DNA from: Pseudomonas beijingensis
Lineage (GTDB): Bacteria > Pseudomonadota > Gammaproteobacteria > Pseudomonadales > Pseudomonadaceae
Length of the DNA: 64,000 nt
NCBI RefSeq assembly: GCF_030687295.1
Contig: NZ_CP117425.1
Coordinates: 6,204,001-6,268,000, forward strand
Reading direction: 5' to 3'
In this document: positions 2,493 through 13,110 of the stretch, one piece after another
How positions within the stretch are numbered: the first letter of the stretch is position 1
Layout: the number at the start of each line of letters is the position of its first letter
The notes under the pieces: model-generated
What the model saw: only the letters and a program-made list of their open reading frames with translations
The model's database searches: none
What the model was told of the DNA's origin: nothing
Translations under genes and position numbers: made by a program

Positions 2493-3827
2493 TTACAGGT
2501 TGTAGCCACGCTCGTTGTGCTGGGCCAGGTCCAGGCCCACAGCCTCTTCTTCCTCAGTGACACGCAGACCCATGACGGCGTCCAGGACCTTGAGGATGAT
2601 GAAGGTGACGATCCCGGTGTAGACCACCGTGAAACCCACGCCTTTGAATTGAATCCACACTTGCGCGCCGATATCGGTCACGGTGCCGAAGCCACCCAGG
2701 GCGGGCGCTGCGAACACACCGGTCAGGATCGCGCCGAGGATACCGCCGATGCCGTGCACGCCGAAGGCGTCCAGGGAATCGTCATAACCGAGCTTGCGCT
2801 TGAGGCTGGTGGCGCAGAAGAAGCACACCACGCCCGCCGCCAGGCCGATGACCAGGGCGCCCATCGGGCCCACGGTGCCGGCAGCCGGGGTGATTGCAAC
2901 CAGGCCGGCCACCACGCCCGAAGCAATGCCCAGCGCGCTTGGCTTGCCGTGGGTGATCCACTCGGCAAACATCCAGCCCAGCGCCGCCGCAGCGGTCGCG
3001 ATCTGGGTCACCAGCATCGCCATGCCGGCAGTGCCATTGGCAGCGACAGCGGAACCGGCGTTGAAACCGAACCAGCCGACCCACAGCATGGCCGCACCCA
3101 TCAGGGTGTAACCCAGGTTATGCGGCGCCATTGGCGTGGTCGGGAAGCCTTTGCGCTTGCCCAGTACCAGGCACGCCACCAGGCCGGCGATACCGGCGTT
3201 GATGTGCACCACGGTGCCGCCGGCGAAGTCCAGCACGCCCCAGTCCCACATCAGGCCGCCGTTGCCGGACCAGACCATGTGCGCAATCGGTGCATACACC
3301 AGGGTGAACCACACGCCCATGAAGATCAGCATGGCGGAGAACTTCATCCGCTCGGCAAATGCACCGACGATCAGGGCCGGGGTGATGATGGCGAACGTCA
3401 TCTGGAAGGTGATGAACACCGCTTCAGGGAACAGCGCCGCCGGGCCGGTCAGGCTGGCTGGCGTCACACCCGCCAGGAACGCTTTGCCGAAACCGCCAAC
3501 GAAGGAATTGAAGTTGACGACACCCTGCTCCATGCCGGTGGTGTCGAACGCGATGCTGTAGCCATAGATGACCCACAGAACGCTGATCAGACCGGTAATG
3601 GCAAAGCACTGCATCATCACGGAAAGAAGGTTTTTCGAGCGGACCATGCCACCGTAGAACAGTGCCAGGCCGGGAATGGTCATGAACAGTACAAGAATCG
3701 TGGCCGTGAGCATCCAGGCGGTGTCGCCGGAGTTCAGGACAGGGGCTGCCGCTTCTTCTGCCATGGCCAGGCCAGGCATTGCGAAGGACAACAGGGCTCC
3801 TAGCCCTGCGAATTTACGCAGAGTCAT
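2493..3827 (-). CDS. amtB: Ammonium transporter AmtB
   Basis: 444-residue ammonium channel of the Amt/Rh family in the inner membrane. An N-terminal signal sequence (about residues 1-23, cut after AMA) precedes 11 predicted transmembrane helices. Family motifs are visible: DTAWMLTATILVLFMTIPGLALFYGGM in helix 1, the FAIITPALIVGAFAERMKF stretch, DFAGGTVVHINAG with the first pore His, and AFGVHGIGGILGAILTG with the second. It follows glnK by 33 bases on the same strand, the standard glnK-amtB operon in which GlnK plugs the AmtB pore when nitrogen is plentiful. Expression is expected from the sigma-54 promoter ahead of glnK. Confidence 0.96.
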   Translation of the reverse strand: MTLRKFAGLGALLSFAMPGLAMAEEAAAPVLNSGDTAWMLTATILVLFMTIPGLALFYGGMVRSKNLLSVMMQCFAITGLISVLWVIYGYSIAFDTTGMEQGVVNFNSFVGGFGKAFLAGVTPASLTGPAALFPEAVFITFQMTFAIITPALIVGAFAERMKFSAMLIFMGVWFTLVYAPIAHMVWSGNGGLMWDWGVLDFAGGTVVHINAGIAGLVACLVLGKRKGFPTTPMAPHNLGYTLMGAAMLWVGWFGFNAGSAVAANGTAGMAMLVTQIATAAAALGWMFAEWITHGKPSALGIASGVVAGLVAITPAAGTVGPMGALVIGLAAGVVCFFCATSLKRKLGYDDSLDAFGVHGIGGILGAILTGVFAAPALGGFGTVTDIGAQVWIQFKGVGFTVVYTGIVTFIILKVLDAVMGLRVTEEEEAVGLDLAQHNERGYNL

Positions 3828-3860
3828 ATTGTTTTCTCCTGGGGCGTTGGGTTTGGCGGC

Positions 3861-4585
<725 letters not shown>

Positions 4586-4614: not shown

Positions 4615-4875
4615 ATGCTTGCGCCCAAAGACCTTCTCGACGCCCTGAGCGGCCACGCCTCCCGTATTTTGAGTGGCGACACGTCGCTGCCCAAAAGCGA
4701 AATCGAAAGCCAGTTCAAGGCCTTGCTGCAAAGCGGCTTCAGCAAGCTGGACTTGGTCAGCCGGGAGGAATTCGACAGCCAGATGGTCGTGCTGGCCCGG
4801 ACCCGGGCACGGCTCGAAAGCCTGGAGGCCAAGGTCGCCGAGCTGGAAGCACGATTGGCTCCGGTACAGGATTAA
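4615..4875 (+). CDS. ubiK: Ubiquinone biosynthesis accessory factor UbiK (YqiC family)
   Basis: 86-residue protein of the YqiC/UbiK family. UbiK is a small membrane-associated accessory factor that works with UbiJ in the cytoplasmic ubiquinone-synthesis complex. The N-terminal half is an amphipathic helix (LLDALSGHASRIL). The C-terminal half, from about residue 45, is a coiled coil with the family motif LDLVSREEFDSQMVVLARTR followed by LESLEAKVAELEARL. The ATG at 4615 starts the family-conserved region; longer readings in this frame run through the glnK promoter region and are not supported. It is divergent from glnK and convergent with the kinase gene, 36 bases away. Confidence 0.88.
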   Translation: MLAPKDLLDALSGHASRILSGDTSLPKSEIESQFKALLQSGFSKLDLVSREEFDSQMVVLARTRARLESLEAKVAELEARLAPVQD

Positions 4876-4911: not shown

Positions 4912-6189
4912 TCAAGCATTCGCCGCCCGCTGAGCCTGGTCCGGTGTGAGCGCCAGCGGCAGCTCCAGGCTAAACAGCGCGCCGCGGCCCGGCCCGGCGC
5001 TCTGCACGGTCAGGTCGCCGCCCATCTCGTGCGCCGCCAGAATGCAGCTATGCAAACCAAAGCCGTGGCCGCCGACACGCGTGGTGAAGCCGTGCTCGAA
5101 CACCCGCGCAAGATTGTCCTGGGAAATCCCCTCGCCATTGTCCTCGACCTCGACCCGCACACGCTCATCGTCAACGAGCTCCAGGCGCAGGATGATCTGT
5201 GGCGGACGGTTCACGCCTGCGTCCAGCGCCTGCTTGGCGTTGTTGATCAGATTGACCAGGATCTGCAGCACTCGGTGCTTATCCAATGGCATTTGCGGGA
5301 TATCGCTGAATTCCTTGATCAGGGTGATGTGGTGGCGGGCCAGGGACACATCGCAAATGCGCACGACATCCTCAAGCAGCTCTCGCAACGAGCCCGGCTC
5401 CAGGACGCTGGCATTGCCGGCATAGGATTGCTGGGTGGCGACGATTTCCTTGATGTGGTCGATCCGGCGGGTCAACTGCGCCAATTCGGCGATCATGACC
5501 TGCTGCTCGATTGCCAGCGCGTCGGCCAGCTTGTCGAGATAGTCCGGTAGCGCGCGCCCTTTCGGGTCGCTGCTGATGAAGTCGCCGAGGTCATCGGGAT
5601 GTTCCTTCATCAACTGGACGACCTTCGCCACCCCCGGTCCCTTGGAGGTGTGCACCTTCTCGTAGAGGACTTGGGCTGACACGTTGACGCTATTGAGCAC
5701 ATTGCCCACGTTGTGCAATACATTGGTGGCGATCTCCGCCATGCCGGCCCGGCGCGCAGTAGTCACCAGCTCGGCCTGCGCCTCGCGCAACTCGTCGTTG
5801 ACCTTGGCCAATTGCCGCGGGCTGGGAATCTTCAGGGCCGCCGGCACCAGCCGGACCAGCAGGATGGCGGTAATCACCGAGGCAATCGCGGTGATCACCT
5901 TGACCAGTGCCGACAACCAGTAATAAGGCTGCCAAATGGTCAGGATTTCCATCACGTGGCTGGTCCCGCAGGCCAGGATAAACACGCCGAAGGCCGCCAG
6001 CATCCAATCGAACGGCACATCCTTGCGCTTGTGGATAAAGTACAGAAGGGTGAAGGGGATGGTGACGTAGGACAGGGTGATCAAGCCATCGGCGATCACA
6101 TTGGTCCACAGCAGATCCGGACGCCACATATAGCAATGTCCGTGGGGCATGAAGCGCTTGTCGGTTAACAAAGCCAGCAGATCGTTCAT
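4912..6189 (-). CDS. Orphan histidine kinase with ethylene-receptor-like membrane domain
   Basis: 425-residue sensor kinase. Residues 18-115 form three membrane helices that align with the ethylene-binding domain of plant ETR1. Asp34, Tyr41, Pro45, Ile71, Cys74 and His78 correspond to ETR1 Asp25, Tyr32, Pro36, Ile62, Cys65 and His69, with the same spacing throughout; Cys and His hold Cu(I) in ETR1. A short coiled coil (about 125-145) leads to the phosphoacceptor H-box GMAEIATNVLHNVGNVLNS with His159, then an ATPase domain with N-box (LVNLINNAKQALD), G1 (EDNGEGI), F-box (FEHGFTTR) and G2 (GHGFGLHS). The ATG at 6189 has GGAGG 8 bases upstream; the GTG at 6195 is only two bases from it. No response regulator is adjacent. 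Ethylene binding is inferred, not shown. Confidence 0.85.
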   Translation of the reverse strand: MNDLLALLTDKRFMPHGHCYMWRPDLLWTNVIADGLITLSYVTIPFTLLYFIHKRKDVPFDWMLAAFGVFILACGTSHVMEILTIWQPYYWLSALVKVITAIASVITAILLVRLVPAALKIPSPRQLAKVNDELREAQAELVTTARRAGMAEIATNVLHNVGNVLNSVNVSAQVLYEKVHTSKGPGVAKVVQLMKEHPDDLGDFISSDPKGRALPDYLDKLADALAIEQQVMIAELAQLTRRIDHIKEIVATQQSYAGNASVLEPGSLRELLEDVVRICDVSLARHHITLIKEFSDIPQMPLDKHRVLQILVNLINNAKQALDAGVNRPPQIILRLELVDDERVRVEVEDNGEGISQDNLARVFEHGFTTRVGGHGFGLHSCILAAHEMGGDLTVQSAGPGRGALFSLELPLALTPDQAQRAANA

Positions 6190-6433
6190 GGCCACTTCCT
6201 CCCTGTGCCGTTGATACCGCCAAGTGCCGACTGGGCAAAATCGAGTCTAGCAGAGGGCCGGTCCCGGACAATTTGCCCGCCGACGGAGCTTTTTGTAGAG
6301 CCCCCGTGATAGTGAAGAAAGCGGAAAGGTCCACAACCTGAAGACACTGTCAGCAGAATGCCAAGGGAGTTGCACAGGATAAGCGCGGAACGCCTTAACG
6401 CTCCGCGCTCTTCACATTGGCTACCGTGAACCT

Positions 6434-7879
6434 TTATGGCCTGTCCAGTTTCACCGCAGACTCAGCCATCCAGTAGCTCTCCCGCCAGAACTTGTAGTCT
6501 GCAAACTCTCCATGTTTTTGTGGCCACTTACCGTGATTATCGATGGGGAAGCGAGTTAAGTGCACCCTATTGCGCAGCGGTCTGTAACATGCCACGTCAT
6601 CAACAACCTGGGCATTCGGGAAAACATCTTCAGCCAACCGCGTCATATTCCACCAAGACCCAGCCGTTCGATCCTTGAATGAATTGACTTCGCCAAACGT
6701 ATAGTCAATCCAGTTCAAGAGACTCCCGCGCGGCATGAAGTCATGAAAGAAATTTTCACCAATTTCTCTGTATGGGTCCAAGCTCAAATTCCAGAAGTCC
6801 ACTTCAGGTCTTGTTACCAACCAAGGCACAACAACGTTCTCGACTTCTTTTACCCGCGCTGCAGCGCCCATAAACACCAGGTTATTCACGTTAATATCCG
6901 GATGCCTGGCAAGGATATTAACCGCGACGATCGCCCCCATACTATGCCCAACAATATTTATCTCACTCCCATCAACGGGATATAGGGAACCCTGTTGATC
7001 GCCCTTTTTTTCCAAACGATGGAGCAGTGCGGTAACGGCTGTATCAGCGTAGCGAACCGGCCCCTTGAACTCTTTATCTGGCTCGGTGATTAAATCGCCT
7101 TCAAACGCGATATTTTTAGTCAGCACCAAGTCAGTACGACGCAGCATTCCATCCCATGCCCCGGTTCCAAAGCCGTCGACCAAGGGGGCCATCCCCAACT
7201 TGACTGGATTCCACACGGTATAGTAATCACTGCCGACACCGACATGGGGTGGCGAATTACTTACTTGAAATCCCATATCGTCCAGTTTATCAACTCTTCT
7301 CTGGTAGTCTGCTTCATCAACGCTATTGACGCTTTTGGACACCGCGACCGGGTCTGAAATTTCCTTGTACATCGATGATGGAACCCTGACCAAGGACCGC
7401 CCTAAATCCTCGATCAACACAACGGGAGAGGTCATCGCACCCAGCACCGGTCTATTAAGCCCTTTTCGAATTCTAAATAGATGGTCAGCATAGTTAGGCC
7501 AGAAATCGGAATTCCAAGCAATAAAGATAGGGTATTGATGATCAGCGAGCATGTCATCGACCATTCTTCCAGGACGATCAACCGCTGTAGAAAAATTATT
7601 CAAGCCGCCGTGTATGAACAAGGTAATTCTTAATTTTTTATCCTTGTTTCGGAGCGCTATATAATTCTGAAAAATCCTCTCGAGATACATCTTCTCATCG
7701 GCTTTTGTTTTCTTCAGATCGCCTCGTTCACCGATGATTGTTTTTTGGTTTGGATCAATGAGGTTTCCATCCCCATCAATGTAAAGCATGTGCAATTTGG
7801 CATTCTGGTAATCCGTCCCTTTATGACCTGCACACCCCACCAACACAATAATTGCTATCAGCCAAGTCAAGAGCTTCAT
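6434..7879 (-). CDS. Putative alpha/beta-hydrolase lipoprotein
   Basis: 481-residue predicted lipoprotein: short charged start, hydrophobic stretch and lipobox LVGC with Cys16. The body looks like an alpha/beta-hydrolase. LRITLFIHGGLNNF near residue 85 fits the oxyanion-hole strand, and IVGHSMGAIVAVNIL near 310 is the GxSxG nucleophile elbow with Ser at about 311. Later Asp and His residues could complete the triad but cannot be assigned safely. The start at 7879 is backed by a strong GGGAGGGGG upstream. Base composition is clearly more AT-rich than in the neighbours, with many AAA, AAT and ATA codons, which suggests acquisition by transfer. It stands alone on its strand, divergent from comM. 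A lipase or esterase role is inferred; the substrate is unknown. Confidence 0.7.
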   Translation of the reverse strand: MKLLTWLIAIIVLVGCAGHKGTDYQNAKLHMLYIDGDGNLIDPNQKTIIGERGDLKKTKADEKMYLERIFQNYIALRNKDKKLRITLFIHGGLNNFSTAVDRPGRMVDDMLADHQYPIFIAWNSDFWPNYADHLFRIRKGLNRPVLGAMTSPVVLIEDLGRSLVRVPSSMYKEISDPVAVSKSVNSVDEADYQRRVDKLDDMGFQVSNSPPHVGVGSDYYTVWNPVKLGMAPLVDGFGTGAWDGMLRRTDLVLTKNIAFEGDLITEPDKEFKGPVRYADTAVTALLHRLEKKGDQQGSLYPVDGSEINIVGHSMGAIVAVNILARHPDINVNNLVFMGAAARVKEVENVVVPWLVTRPEVDFWNLSLDPYREIGENFFHDFMPRGSLLNWIDYTFGEVNSFKDRTAGSWWNMTRLAEDVFPNAQVVDDVACYRPLRNRVHLTRFPIDNHGKWPQKHGEFADYKFWRESYWMAESAVKLDRP

Positions 7880-8091
7880 GCGACCCCCTCCCTTTAAGTA
7901 ACTAGGAGTGTAGAAGAGAACTGGGACCTTAATGGCGTCATGCCACCCACCCTCTATAGCCACTCAGGCTGCTCAGCGCTCCGCAACATCCTGCCAAAAT
8001 TTCCCCCTTCAATTGCCATGCCCAAACTCATCCCACGACTAACCTTCAAAAGCCGCAGGACGCGGCCCCCCATTCACTCAAGGAACGATTC

Positions 8092-9585
8092 ATGTCGCTC
8101 GCCATTGTCCATAGCCGCGCCCAAGTGGGGGTCGAGGCTCCTGCCGTTACCGTTGAAGTTCACCTGGCCAATGGCTTGCCGTCGCTGACGATGGTTGGCC
8201 TGCCGGAAGCGGCGGTGAAGGAAAGCAAGGATCGGGTGCGCAGCGCGATCATCAATTCGGGGCTGAATTTTCCTGCGCGGCGCATCACCCTGAACCTGGC
8301 GCCGGCGGACCTGCCCAAGGACGGCGGGCGCTTCGACCTGGCCATCGCCTTGGGGATCCTATCGGCCAGCGTGCAGGTGCCGACCCTGACGCTGGACGAC
8401 GTGGAATGCCTCGGTGAACTGGCCTTGTCCGGCGCGGTGCGACCGGTGCGCGGGGTATTGCCTGCGGCGCTGGCGGCGCGCAAGGCCGGGCGCACGCTGG
8501 TGGTGCCACGGGCCAATGCCGAGGAAGCTTGTCTGGCGTCGGGGCTGAAGGTGATCGCCGTGGATCATCTGCTCGAAGCGGTAGCGCACTTCAACGGTCA
8601 CACGCCGGTCGAGCCGTTCGTTTCCAATGGACTGCTCTCGGCCAGCAAGCCTTACCCGGACCTGAATGAAGTACAAGGCCAGGCCGGGGCCAAGCGGGCC
8701 TTGCTGATTGCCGCTGCGGGGGCTCACAACCTGTTGTTCAGCGGGCCACCCGGCACCGGCAAGACCCTGCTGGCGAGCCGCTTGCCAGGGCTGTTGCCGC
8801 CGCTGGCCGAGAGCGAAGCCCTGGAAGTCGCGGCCATCCAGTCGGTGGCCAGTTGCGTGCCGTTGAGCCATTGGCCGCAACGCCCGTTTCGCCAGCCACA
8901 CCACTCGGCTTCCGGCCCGGCGCTGGTGGGTGGCGGGTCAAAGCCGCAGCCAGGGGAGATCACCCTCGCCCACCATGGCGTGCTGTTTCTGGATGAGCTG
9001 CCGGAATTCGACCGCAAGGTGCTGGAGGTCTTGAGAGAACCGCTGGAGTCCGGGCACATCGTGGTATCCCGCGCCCGGGATCGAGTCCGCTTCCCTGCCC
9101 GTTTCCAGTTGGTGGCGGCGATGAATCCCTGCCCCTGTGGCTATCTTGGCGAGCCCAGCGGCCGCTGCGCCTGTACACCGGACATGGTGCAGCGCTACCG
9201 CAACAAACTCTCCGGCCCGCTGCTGGACCGCATCGACCTGCACCTGACCGTCGCCCGGGAGGCCACGGCGTTGAACCCCAAGCGCGACCCCGGAGACGAT
9301 ACGGCCACGGTCGCGGAACGCGTAGCCGAAGCCCGGGAACGCCAGCACAAGCGCCAGGGCTGCGCTAACGCCTTCCTCGACCTGCCCGGCTTGCGCCGAC
9401 ACTGCAAGTTATCCACAACCGATGAAACCTGGCTGGAAACCGCCTGCGAGCGGCTGACCCTGTCGCTACGTGCCGCTCACCGCTTGCTCAAGGTCGCCCG
9501 GACACTGGCGGACCTGGAGCAAGCGGGGAGCATTCGCCGCGAGCACCTGGCCGAAGCGTTGCAGTATCGGCCGGCTACGGCTTGA
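8092..9585 (+). CDS. comM: YifB/ComM family AAA+ ATPase (Mg-chelatase-like)
   Basis: 497-residue ComM/YifB protein. In naturally competent bacteria ComM is a hexameric helicase that drives branch migration during integration of transforming DNA. The N-terminal ChlI/Lon-protease-like fold (1-165, with GLPEAAVKESKDRVRSAI) precedes an AAA+ module with Walker A GPPGTGKT at 218-225 and a Walker B in GVLFLDELPEF, then the Cys-rich NPCPCGYLG...CACTP segment and the C-terminal Mg-chelatase domain (FLDLPGLRRHC onward). It is complete and of normal family length, monocistronic, and convergent with the epimerase gene five bases away. The 212-base stretch before it shows no recognisable motif. Confidence 0.92.
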   Translation: MSLAIVHSRAQVGVEAPAVTVEVHLANGLPSLTMVGLPEAAVKESKDRVRSAIINSGLNFPARRITLNLAPADLPKDGGRFDLAIALGILSASVQVPTLTLDDVECLGELALSGAVRPVRGVLPAALAARKAGRTLVVPRANAEEACLASGLKVIAVDHLLEAVAHFNGHTPVEPFVSNGLLSASKPYPDLNEVQGQAGAKRALLIAAAGAHNLLFSGPPGTGKTLLASRLPGLLPPLAESEALEVAAIQSVASCVPLSHWPQRPFRQPHHSASGPALVGGGSKPQPGEITLAHHGVLFLDELPEFDRKVLEVLREPLESGHIVVSRARDRVRFPARFQLVAAMNPCPCGYLGEPSGRCACTPDMVQRYRNKLSGPLLDRIDLHLTVAREATALNPKRDPGDDTATVAERVAEARERQHKRQGCANAFLDLPGLRRHCKLSTTDETWLETACERLTLSLRAAHRLLKVARTLADLEQAGSIRREHLAEALQYRPATA

Positions 9586-9590
9586 CCGCT

Positions 9591-10805
9591 TTACGGTTTG
9601 CTCAGGTCTACCAATGGTGTTTGCCGTACCTCGGTTTTTTGACCGTTCTGGATCGCATCGATGCGCTTGAGCGCCTTATCCACAGCGCCCTTGTCCGCCA
9701 ACAGGCTGTAATGGATCTGGAATTGCTTGTGCTCCTTCGGCCCGATCGTGGGCACCAGGCCCAGGGGGCGCTGATAGCGGCGGTTATAGGAAAAACTGGT
9801 GCCTGGCTCCAACCCGGTCACGTAGCCCTGGCCTTGGGTATCGGTGTTTTTCCACAGGGAGAATACGGGCAGCGTGCTGGTGTTGAAGCCTACCGATACC
9901 CCGAGGCTGCCGGCCTTGTTGTGCAGCACGGTGAGAGTGTCGCCCTTGGCGTCGGCGTAGGGCACGACGTTATAAACGGTTTCGTCGTAATCCTTGGTCG
10001 GGGCCCGGTAGGTTTGCCAATCGGGCAAGTCGCCCTTGGCCTTGTCGTTGAACGGCGAGACCTGCTTGACCGGGGCCGCGAAACGAGCGCCTTGCTCCAG
10101 GAAAGGCGTGCTGAAATTGCTGTGGTAGAGCGCTTGGTATTCCTTCGGGTAATCGCCGTTGTTGGTCAGCGTGTCGTTGAGCGCGAACGTCACGCTGCCG
10201 GGCTCGGTGACCAGTTCGGTTTGCACCGAGAAATCGACCTTCTTGAACGCCTGCTCCTTCAACTCGCCTTGCAGGGTGATGGCGTAGGGTGGTTTTTCAT
10301 CGATGTGCAAGGTGACTTTGTTGGCGGGGATATTGGCGGCGCGACCATGCAGGGTCAGCAGCTCGCCGTTGTCCATGCCGGGATGGCCGACCCATTCGTA
10401 GCCGCAGCGGGTAACCAGCTCGTTGAAGCCTTCGAGCCAGCCCAACCCGCCTCGGCCGTTGAGCTCGATGAACGCCGGGTTGACCACTTCCTTGACGGGC
10501 GAATCCCAACCCATGCGCACATCACCGACCGACGCCTGCAGCACGTTCATGCCACGGGTCGGGACGACTGAAAGCTTCAGGGTGCCGTTGTCGATGTCGA
10601 CCACGCTGACGCCTTCCTGCCGGCCGCCGTGCAGGGTGCGCATCGTCACGGAAAAGGGCTTGTCGGTCTTCACGCCGAGTTGCTGGCTGGTGATTTGCCA
10701 GGGTTGGGCGGCTTTATCGGTATCCAGCAGGACGTAATCCCAAGCCATCGCCTGGGAAGCAGCGCCCAGGGCGCCAAGGGTAACGAGGAGTTTGAGCGGA
10801 GTCAT
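9591..10805 (-). CDS. DUF4432 family protein (aldose 1-epimerase-like), exported
   Basis: 404 residues with a clear signal peptide (MTPLKLLVTLGALGAASQAMA, cut near 21), so probably periplasmic. The body belongs to the DUF4432 group of galactose-mutarotase-like beta-sandwich proteins: SVVPTRGMNVLQASVGDVRMGWDSP, GGLGWLEGFNELVTRCGYEWVGHPG and LLTLHGRAANIPA are recognisable, the last with a His that fits the mutarotase active site. Family members are predicted to epimerise or bind sugars, but the substrate is not established. The ATG has AAGG about 8 bases upstream. Its stop is five bases from that of comM. It is monocistronic and no sugar-utilisation gene is nearby, so context does not help. Confidence 0.8.
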   Translation of the reverse strand: MTPLKLLVTLGALGAASQAMAWDYVLLDTDKAAQPWQITSQQLGVKTDKPFSVTMRTLHGGRQEGVSVVDIDNGTLKLSVVPTRGMNVLQASVGDVRMGWDSPVKEVVNPAFIELNGRGGLGWLEGFNELVTRCGYEWVGHPGMDNGELLTLHGRAANIPANKVTLHIDEKPPYAITLQGELKEQAFKKVDFSVQTELVTEPGSVTFALNDTLTNNGDYPKEYQALYHSNFSTPFLEQGARFAAPVKQVSPFNDKAKGDLPDWQTYRAPTKDYDETVYNVVPYADAKGDTLTVLHNKAGSLGVSVGFNTSTLPVFSLWKNTDTQGQGYVTGLEPGTSFSYNRRYQRPLGLVPTIGPKEHKQFQIHYSLLADKGAVDKALKRIDAIQNGQKTEVRQTPLVDLSKP

Positions 10806-10918
10806 GGACGCGACCTTTTATTGGAGTTGTGCGGTTTTTATAGTCTTGAAGAAACGTTTCAGCAAGCTTAAAAACAGCAATAACCTTAAAAAAGCACGAC
10901 TACACGATCGACAGCTTT

Positions 10919-11099
10919 TTGTGGGAGCGAGCTTGCTCGCGATGACGTCAGCTCGGACAACCCAGAACCCGTGGCGAGGGATTGGCTTGAGGTTCAGCGT
11001 TGAGCTGAGAGGACGGTGGTGAATGCTCGTGATGGCGGTGAGTCAGCTGGCAGGGGTGTGGCTGGAAAGCCGCCTTCGCGAGCAAGCTCGCTCCCACAG
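10919..11099. repeat. Two REP arms about 125 bases apart
   Basis: A forward GTGGGAGCGAGCTTGCTCGC at 10921 and an inverted copy at 11076-11097 flank unrelated sequence. The spacing is larger than in the other doublets, so this is either two single REPs or a REPIN with inserted DNA. Nothing else is recognisable in the gene-free stretch 10806-11133. Confidence 0.8.
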
Positions 11100-11133
11100 G
11101 GAATCTCTGGGAGCGGGCTTGTGACAGGAAGCC

Positions 11134-13110
11134 TCAGCGGAACCGATCAACCTCTTGGCGCAGGTCCTGGGCCAGTTTTTCCAGCTCCTTGGCAGTGAGG
11201 GCCAGGTTCGAGACCACTTGGCGCTGTTCACTGTTGGCCATGGCAATGCTCTGCAGGTTGCTGCTGAGCAGGGTTGCGGTGCTGCTTTGTTCCTGGGTGG
11301 CGGTGGTGATCGCCGCGAATTGCTGGCCAGCCGAGCGGCTCTGCTCGTCGATGCGCGCCAGGGCCGAGGCCACATTGGCGTTGCGCGACAGACCTTCCTG
11401 CATCAACAAATTGCCCTGCTCCATCGTGCTGATGGCATTGCCGGTTTCCTGCTGGATGCTGTTGATCATGCTGGAGATTTCGTCCGTGGCCTGGCGGGTG
11501 CGGGACGCCAGGCTGCGGACTTCATCGGCCACCACGGCGAAACCACGGCCCTGCTCGCCGGCGCGGGCAGCTTCAATGGCCGCGTTCAAGGCCAACAGGT
11601 TGGTCTGCTCGGCAATCGAGGTAATGACCCCCACGATGCCGCCGATTTCCTGGGACCGCTGGCCCAGGGTATTGATGACCGTGGCCGTGCTGTTCAGCGC
11701 GCCGGCGATTTGCTCCAGGGAGGACGACGCTTCATCCATCGAGGTCCGACCAATGCGGGTTTGCTGGGCGTTTTCCTGGGCCAGGCGCTCGGTGTTGCCC
11801 ATGTTGTCGGCAATGTTCAAGGAGGTCGCACTGAACTCCTCCACGGCGCCAGCCATGCTGGTGATCTCGCCGGACTGCTGTTCCATGCCTTCGTACGCTC
11901 CGCTGGACAACCCGGACAGGGCCTGGGCGCGGCTGTTGACCTCCTGGGAGGCCTTGCGGATGTGCTCGACCATGGTCGACAGGGCCTGGCTCATCTGGTT
12001 GAAGGCACGGGCCAACTGACCGATTTCGTCATGGCTCGACACATTCAGGCGCACGCTCAGGTCGCCGGCGCCCAACGCCTCGGCCTGGCGCACCAGATCC
12101 CCCAGCGGTGCCAGTTTGCTGCGCAACAACCACATCGCCGAACCGACCGCCAACAGCATCGCCAGCAGGCTGCCGATGGCCAGTTGCATACCGACGCTCC
12201 AGGTCACGGCGCGGATCTCGGTTTTCGGCATGCTCGCCACCACCGCCCACGGCCCCCCCTCGAACGGTACGGCAACGCTGTAGAAATCTTCGGCGGTATC
12301 GGCCCAGAACGCGCCCTTGCCCGGCTTTTTGATCAAGCCGGTGATGGCCGCGGTAGCGTTGTCCAGCGCCTGCACGCCGGCGGGCGGCACCAGCCATTTG
12401 TTTTGTTCGTCCAGCAGCGCCAGGGAACCGGTCTGGCCGATGCGGAAGCGCTTGAGGTTTTCGAACTGCGCGTTCTGCGCGTCGGTGTAATCGAAGCCTA
12501 CGTACAACACGGCAATGATCTTGCCGCTGCTGTCGCGTACAGGCGTGTACTGCGACATGTAGAAGCGCCCGAAAAGCAGGGCCCGACCAATGTAGCTCTG
12601 CCCACTGATCACCGGGCCGTAGGCCGGGCCGGCGCGGTCGAGCACGGTGCCGATGGCCCGTGTACCGTCCTGTTTACTGACCGAGGTACTGACGCGGATG
12701 AAATCGTCGCCGCTGCGCACGAAGACTGTGGCCACCCCGGCGGTCATCGCCTTGAACTCGTCCACTTCCTTGAAGTTGTTGTTCAACACTTCGCTGCCCA
12801 GGTTCAAGCCTGGAGTTTGTACGCCCGCCACCGTCACCGGCTGGTCCGGATGCACGCTCAGGCCCGCGCTGAAGCGCTTTTCGAACAGACCGGCCAAGCG
12901 CTGAGTGCTCTCGCGCAGGGTGCTGTGGAAGGTATTGAGCTGATCGGCCATCAGGCGCGCTTCGCTGGCCAAGTGCTCTTCACGGGTGGCAAGGTTGGCA
13001 GTGTCCAGCGAACGCAAGGCGAAGACGGTACTGCCGGAGATCACGATCGCCAGTATCACGGCGAGGGCAAGGCCTAGCTGTGAGGCGATTCGGGCGCGGG
13101 GTTGAGACAT
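11134..13110 (-). CDS. Methyl-accepting chemotaxis protein with Cache sensor
   Basis: 658-residue chemoreceptor. Helix 1 (about 10-32, [21 protein letters not shown]) is followed by a periplasmic Cache_3-Cache_2-type sensor of some 270 residues ([48 protein letters not shown]), helix 2 near 310-330, a HAMP linker, and a long coiled-coil cytoplasmic domain. Its highly conserved hairpin tip reads [34 protein letters not shown] and docks CheA/CheW. The ATG at 13110 is chosen because AGGAG lies 7 bases upstream and the first helix follows directly; a longer reading to 13218 adds a charged tail without support. The ligand is unknown. Cache receptors of this type often sense organic acids or amines. 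Confidence 0.92.

Follow-up and report, generated by a model that had tools for sequence, protein, structure and literature searches.

Bacterial ethylene receptors have already been published, one of them in a plant-associated proteobacterium (PMC11819568), which makes the finding of an ethylene-binding domain (EBD) on a Pseudomonas histidine kinase less surprising than it would otherwise be. In the plant receptor AtETR1, D25, C65, H69 and K91 are named as pocket residues, and ethylene inhibits the AtETR1 kinase, with indirect evidence for the same effect in SynEtr1 of Synechocystis (PMC11819568). According to a review, a change of the Asp to Asn lowers the affinity about 100-fold (PMC13012798), and the plant receptors ERS1 and ERS2 have a GAF domain (PMC6682694). 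In Azospirillum brasilense, ethylene lowered cyclic di-GMP, biofilm formation and root colonisation by a pathway that the authors call unknown, whereas it raises biofilm formation in Synechocystis (both PMC11819568), so that the direction of the response is not transferable between organisms. Ethylene chemotaxis of Pseudomonas has been reported (Kim 2007, as cited in PMC4686702). Neither a Pseudomonas EBD kinase nor a link of one to diguanylate cyclases was found in the accessible portions of the open-licence literature; the bacterial EBD surveys cited in PMC11819568 may include Pseudomonas.

The gene described here lies in a stretch of 64,000 nucleotides of the Pseudomonas beijingensis genome (GCF_030687295.1, contig NZ_CP117425.1, positions 6,204,001 to 6,268,000), which we refer to as the window and from whose first letter all positions in Table 1 are counted. 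The original prediction had recognised a kinase reading frame without giving its strand; the frame is real and can now be assigned to the minus strand, the plus strand of the same interval being broken by three in-frame stops. The long open reading frame between the kinase gene and yifB has no Pfam match at 1e-5 and no NCBIfam match at 1e-10, lacks a counterpart at any other EBD-kinase locus compared and is missed by a codon model that had the window as its training sequence; it is possibly a recent acquisition. Promoter-like and terminator-like sites found by a pattern scan were not above those in shuffled sequences.

Table 1. Position, strand and supporting evidence of features at and around the EBD kinase gene in the window.
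Feature	Position	Strand	Evidence or remark
EBD histidine kinase gene, 425 aa	4912..6189	-	ATG at 6189; alternative GTG start at 6195
ETR1_N ethylene-binding domain (EBD), residues 26-121	5827..6114	-	Pfam PF25487, residues and helices
DHp-like region, residues ~126-257, with likely phosphoacceptor H159 in LHNVGN	5419..5814	-	Box common to sibling kinases
HATPase_c catalytic domain, residues 303-413	4951..5283	-	Pfam, E 1.8e-19
ubiK, left flank of insertion point	4615..4875	+	NCBIfam UbiK, 72 bits, below the cut-off of 100 bits; conserved neighbour
yifB/comM, right flank of insertion point	8092..9585	+	NCBIfam; conserved neighbour
509-aa ORF between kinase gene and yifB	6434..7963	-	Unmatched in Pfam and NCBIfam
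amtB (2493-3779) and glnK (3861-4199), next genes to the left	2493..4199	-	NCBIfam

The N-terminal part of the window protein matches the Pfam family ETR1_N with an E-value of 6.3e-37 (126 bits, cut-off 27). This domain is single-copy in the window's genome and was found in none of 14 control genomes. All six pocket residues listed in the original prediction (D34, Y41, P45, I71, C74 and H78) are confirmed, and I44 and K97, which it missed, are also present. The seven ethylene-binding residues are thereby all kept, D34, Y41, I44 and P45 in helix 1 and I71, C74 and H78 in helix 2, as is the helix 3 lysine (K97) that pairs with the Asp. Besides Asp, Cys and His, the four other members of this set also contribute to ethylene binding. 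The intervals of 40 residues from Asp to Cys and 44 from Asp to His equal those in AtETR1 (25/65/69), as had been claimed, and those in AzoEtr1 of A. brasilense (35/75/79), and the Asp-Lys interval of 63 residues equals that in AzoEtr1 (35/98) and differs from the 66 residues in AtETR1 (25/91) (numbering from PMC11819568). At the position where Asn lowers the affinity, the window protein has Asp. ETR1 has a GAF domain, and the Pfam scan found none in the window protein; together with the AzoEtr1-like Asp-Lys spacing, this makes the earlier label "plant-type" wrong in detail. The core of the claim, a histidine kinase whose EBD pocket is intact, holds on the ETR1_N match and the conserved residues, and the window protein is assigned by homology, which also supplies its presumed ligand and copper, to the bacterial ethylene receptors of the ETR1_N family.

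Three membrane helices, likewise part of the original prediction, are placed at residues 24-54, 61-86 and 90-118 by a low-confidence AlphaFold model together with hydropathy peaks. The model (one job, alignment of 15 rows) has a mean pLDDT of 60.9, which supports the helix layout only: three helices of membrane length, two long helices in the DHp-like region with further helices between them and, in the ATPase part, strands that alternate with helices. No solved EBD structure was matched by sequence at an E-value of 1. As C74 and H78 stand at positions i and i+4 of one predicted helix, they would lie on the same face by geometry. A structure in which the two do not face each other, which had been proposed as grounds for rejecting the pocket, is a weak discriminator when a single predicted helix carries both.

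The kinase half has the ATPase boxes that had been reported, within a HATPase_c domain (Table 1). The assignment of H159 as phosphoacceptor is retained as likely, because the LHNVGN box around it is kept in related kinases; it is less firm than the original prediction stated, since the window protein has no match to a Pfam DHp family, and an alignment of H159 to the phosphoacceptor His of ZraS gave 3.4 bits, which is not significant. The Pfam scan recognised neither a GAF nor a PAS domain between the EBD and the kinase. Four other kinases of the window's genome are 52-56% identical to the kinase half: two have a DAHL sensor (a term absent from the papers listed in one literature search), a third has no sensor matched by Pfam, and the fourth is a hybrid kinase. 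The segment AGMAEIATNVLHNVGNVLNSVN is shared unchanged by the EBD kinase, the two DAHL proteins and the third kinase; in the hybrid it carries one change. In a midpoint-rooted kinase tree, the EBD kinase forms its own clade among these siblings, and 19 EBD kinases group together, with one hybrid kinase (L087) placed inside the group on a branch without star support. With this branch unstarred and a single clade recovered for the EBDs of Pseudomonas (SH-aLRT 98), the fusion of an EBD to such a kinase may have had a single origin, and we do not claim two separate events. The gene for the hybrid, which has an LHNVGN kinase end (G000:3596885-3600538 in the window's genome), lies 3.7 kb from an ACC deaminase gene (3604214-3605221).

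The EBD has a scattered distribution. It was detected in 15 of 249 sampled Pseudomonas genomes, 20 of 298 in a second sample that overlaps the first, 15 of 303 in a sample of the class (11 over the cut-off) and 23 of 329 in a sample of the phylum, with the window's genome counted in each of the four. A scan for close copies of the EBD kinase yielded 16 Pseudomonas loci with 85-96% identity in the best segment and 8 more distant loci; these locus counts include duplicate genome records, so that the loci cannot be equated with separate species. Among the named carriers are P. brassicacearum, P. thivervalensis, P. kilonensis, P. corrugata and P. mediterranea, which we take to be members of the P. 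corrugata subgroup and to be plant-associated. Other EBD carriers (L079-L081) are presumably marine bacteria, so that the signal need not be plant ethylene. The acdS gene exceeded its cut-off in 8 of the 15 EBD-carrying Pseudomonas genomes and in 21 of the 234 non-carriers (Fisher p 5e-5, kinship ignored). We only note this association, because it ignores kinship and because 7 of the 8 acdS-bearing carriers share the copy between ubiK and yifB described below.

Conservation is high within Pseudomonas. All eight residues, K97 included, are kept in the 31 tabulated Pseudomonas loci, and so is the LHNVGN box (LHNIGN in L002). Among 40 non-Pseudomonas EBDs, some of which come from the same genome and from which L128-L132 and L157 were left out as below the phmmer threshold, all seven ethylene-binding residues occur in 20 and the Cys and His in 35. 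No LHNVGN box was seen in the 40 frames, 19 of which extend past the compared stretch; 26 show other His boxes (e.g. SHEIRTP or AHDFNN), and 14, including 4 incomplete frames, show no His box of the forms sought. An HGHC motif was considered as a general mark of bacterial EBDs and rejected, as it occurs in only 11 of the 40 non-Pseudomonas frames; the query peptide of the close-copy scan contained HGHC, so that hits with this motif were favoured there. The EBD is 91-99% identical among the copies between ubiK and yifB. In the G010 orthologue, it is 94% identical to that of the window protein and the kinase part 83%, pointing to the sensor as the more constrained half.

Genomic placement was compared for 35 fetched copies in addition to the window. 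Three of these (G070, G079 and G149) are located near gyrB, with both ubiK and yifB missing from the vicinity. The other 32 loci, a count that includes duplicate genomes, divide into 28 in which the stretch holds both ubiK and yifB and 4 in which it holds one of the two; the EBD kinase gene stands directly between ubiK and yifB in 16 of the 32, and elsewhere other genes sometimes intervene. In two relatives without an EBD kinase (G205 and G158), ubiK and yifB are about 0.2 kb apart, as expected of an empty site; this arrangement was seen in 2 of the 5 genomes tried, the remainder having ubiK not near yifB or yifB split between contigs. The interval looks like an insertion hot spot. Its cargo in relatives includes a chemoreceptor gene (L024 and L028), a set of GMC oxidoreductase, sorbitol-dehydrogenase-type and cytochrome c genes (L024) and a gene for a deaminase-domain protein (L067). 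In G124 (L015, L029 and L071), the reading frame of the EBD kinase is broken within its kinase part.

The kinase had been described as an orphan with partner and output open. The orphan status is borne out in the window, where the neighbours are ubiK, the unmatched reading frame and yifB and no response regulator is adjacent; the partner can now be narrowed to a family of receivers joined to GGDEF-EAL or kinase outputs. A cluster elsewhere in the window's genome (L084, G000:474000-493000) encodes a receiver-PAS-GGDEF-EAL protein, a receiver-GGDEF-EAL protein, a MauG-like protein, a DAHL kinase and a receiver-kinase. Its three receivers, at 482-490 kb and thus distant from the EBD kinase gene, have in common the motif DDTPxIHxDFRKIL near the N-terminus, and two of the three carry GGDEF-EAL. 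A receiver gene adjoining an LHNVGN kinase gene, absent from the window, is present for the homologue in G149. There, the genes for the EBD kinase (71% identical to that of the window) and for a receiver-PAS-GGDEF-EAL protein are convergent with a 14-base overlap (L018:7687-8931 and 8918-11161). The G149 receiver protein is 65% identical to its counterpart in the window's genome, and the next-best match in G149 to that counterpart, in a search of ten EBD carriers, covers the later domains only.

The two families are found together well beyond the EBD carriers. Among the 249 Pseudomonas genomes, with up to 9 kinase and up to 13 receiver candidates scored per genome, an LHNVGN kinase was found in 97 (E 1e-50), a receiver of the DDTPxIHxDFRKIL type in 99 (E 1e-25) and both in 97; all 15 EBD carriers have both among the candidates scored. 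In 62 genomes with a single kinase match, the place of the kinase is among the matches listed for 56 and that of the receiver for 38 of these, and in all 38 with both places listed the two genes start at most 6.1 kb apart. This shows that the LHNVGN kinase family and the DDTPxIHxDFRKIL receiver family belong together. Most of the co-occurrence stems from a single conserved cluster that has a kinase of its own, so that it speaks for a pairing of the families and not of the EBD kinase in particular. In ten genomes, each family has a single match among the candidates scored. In G149, one of the ten, the two matches are the EBD kinase and the receiver next to it; in the other nine, the EBD search gives no sign that the kinase carries an EBD. 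The tie of the EBD kinase itself to the receivers is thus suggested by one genome, G149, in which the genes are convergent and do not form an operon. Besides the cluster's own kinase, the three other LHNVGN kinases of the window's genome could also use the L084 receivers.

The output domains allow provisional functional assignments from their motifs. All four receivers (three from L084 and that of G149) retain the Asp and Lys typical of receivers, and GGDEF is kept in the receiver-PAS-GGDEF-EAL proteins of both the window's genome and G149. In the former, the EAL motif is altered (MGVQVRW), so this protein is probably a cyclase, while the latter keeps MEALLRW and may be either a cyclase or a phosphodiesterase. 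The receiver-GGDEF-EAL protein of the window's genome, with GSDEF, VEALVRW and DDFGTG, is probably a phosphodiesterase.

Building on the observed domain anatomy, conservation and distribution of the EBD kinase, the co-occurrence of the two families and the one adjacent gene pair, we lean by a narrow margin towards a model in which the EBD kinase is an ethylene receptor that acts in trans on the DDTPxIHxDFRKIL receivers and thereby changes cyclic di-GMP and root attachment; its ligand, copper, phosphoacceptor, phosphotransfer and direction of response are inferred. A copper ion would be held by C74 and H78 in the three-helix membrane domain and would bind ethylene, and D34, paired with K97, would position the copper site and relay the change to the Pseudomonas LHNVGN kinase to which the EBD is directly fused. 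Ethylene on the copper would shift the helix bundle and, by analogy with ETR1 and SynEtr1, lower autophosphorylation of H159. The kinase would phosphorylate in trans one receiver-PAS-GGDEF-EAL protein, one receiver-GGDEF-EAL protein and one receiver-kinase, and reduced phosphorylation of the cyclic-di-GMP regulators would alter cyclic di-GMP and root attachment. Such control of cyclic-di-GMP enzymes by ethylene fits the published drop in cyclic di-GMP in Azospirillum (PMC11819568). The broader reading, to which we give somewhat less than even credence, is that a gaseous plant hormone may directly set cyclic di-GMP in these Pseudomonas: an ETR1-type sensor would have been joined to a native kinase type already serving cyclase and phosphodiesterase regulators, giving a two-component phosphorelay with an enzymatic instead of a transcriptional output that acts on root attachment.

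An ethylene receptor could also signal through another response regulator and have an output other than cyclic di-GMP, a rather unlikely alternative. No receiver adjoins the EBD kinase gene in the window, half of the ubiK-yifB loci (16 of 32) have the gene directly between ubiK and yifB, and the inserts checked against Pfam in three such loci contained no receiver. AzoEtr1 has a stand-alone 135-aa receiver alongside (PMC11819568). In G070 (L016), the EBD kinase gene lies beside Pfam-checked CheA, CheY and MCP genes, and the gene order in G079 (L017) is the same, judged by size and start sequence. Against such a partner, G149 has a single kinase match of this type, the EBD kinase, whose gene adjoins that of the single match to the paired receiver type, and around H159 the EBD kinase is almost the same in sequence as the L084 cluster kinase. 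The EBD kinases of L016 and L017, near gyrB, are 61-62% identical to that of the window; in the three ubiK-yifB loci checked against Pfam for inserts or neighbours, an MCP gene was found in two and CheA in none.

The natural signal could be something other than ethylene if what the membrane domain binds is copper or some other small hydrophobic molecule. We regard this as improbable: the eight residues are kept in all 31 Pseudomonas loci, against seven in 20 of the 40 non-Pseudomonas copies, which indicates that membership of the family does not entail the full set, and ethylene binding is on record for the EBDs of both AzoEtr1 and SynEtr1 (PMC11819568 and PMC6682694). Pulling the other way, copper is the cofactor of ETR1, which makes copper sensing conceivable, and the EBD is confined to 15 of the 249 Pseudomonas genomes. 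EBD proteins are, moreover, scattered across class and phylum genomes and occur in bacteria that we take to be marine. A relic that no longer signals is suggested by the interrupted frame of G124 and is very improbable for the window copy, which keeps the kinase boxes; the other 29 tabulated Pseudomonas loci have open frames of at least 418 codons, and ubiK-yifB copies of the EBD show 91-99% identity. For the preferred reading, a receptor that acts on the DDTPxIHxDFRKIL receivers, the G149 pair, together with the three L084 receivers, makes up a short list of candidates for a direct link from ethylene to cyclic di-GMP, which bears on how plants may tune root colonisation. Overall, the original prediction is partly supported.

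Compared with the described systems, the plant receptors ETR1 and ERS1 have the seven ethylene-binding residues and the Asp-Lys pair in common with the window protein, but their output is mainly kinase-independent, and the Asp-Lys interval of ETR1 is 66 against 63 residues (PMC11819568). SynEtr1 likewise combines an EBD with a histidine kinase and a phosphorelay output; it also senses light and signals via Slr1213 to a small RNA (PMC6682694 and PMC11819568), whereas the window protein showed no additional sensor domain. AzoEtr1, described in a root-associated host (A. brasilense, PLoS Genet 2025, PMC11819568), shares the N-terminal three-helix EBD, the seven residues, the Asp-Cys-His-Lys intervals and the histidine kinase. 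It has 525 aa, a PAS domain and an adjacent 135-aa response regulator; the window protein has 425 aa, no recognised PAS domain, an LHNVGN kinase and no adjacent regulator. In spacing, as judged from the aligned residues, the window protein is closer to AzoEtr1 than to plant ETR1. The nearest relatives of its kinase half are the DAHL-domain Pseudomonas kinases (e.g. L084:9467-11269), which are 53% identical to it there and nearly the same around the His, but which carry a DAHL sensor in place of the EBD and whose genes stand beside receiver-GGDEF-EAL genes. What appears new relative to all of these is the pairing of an EBD with an LHNVGN kinase and its predicted cyclic-di-GMP receivers.
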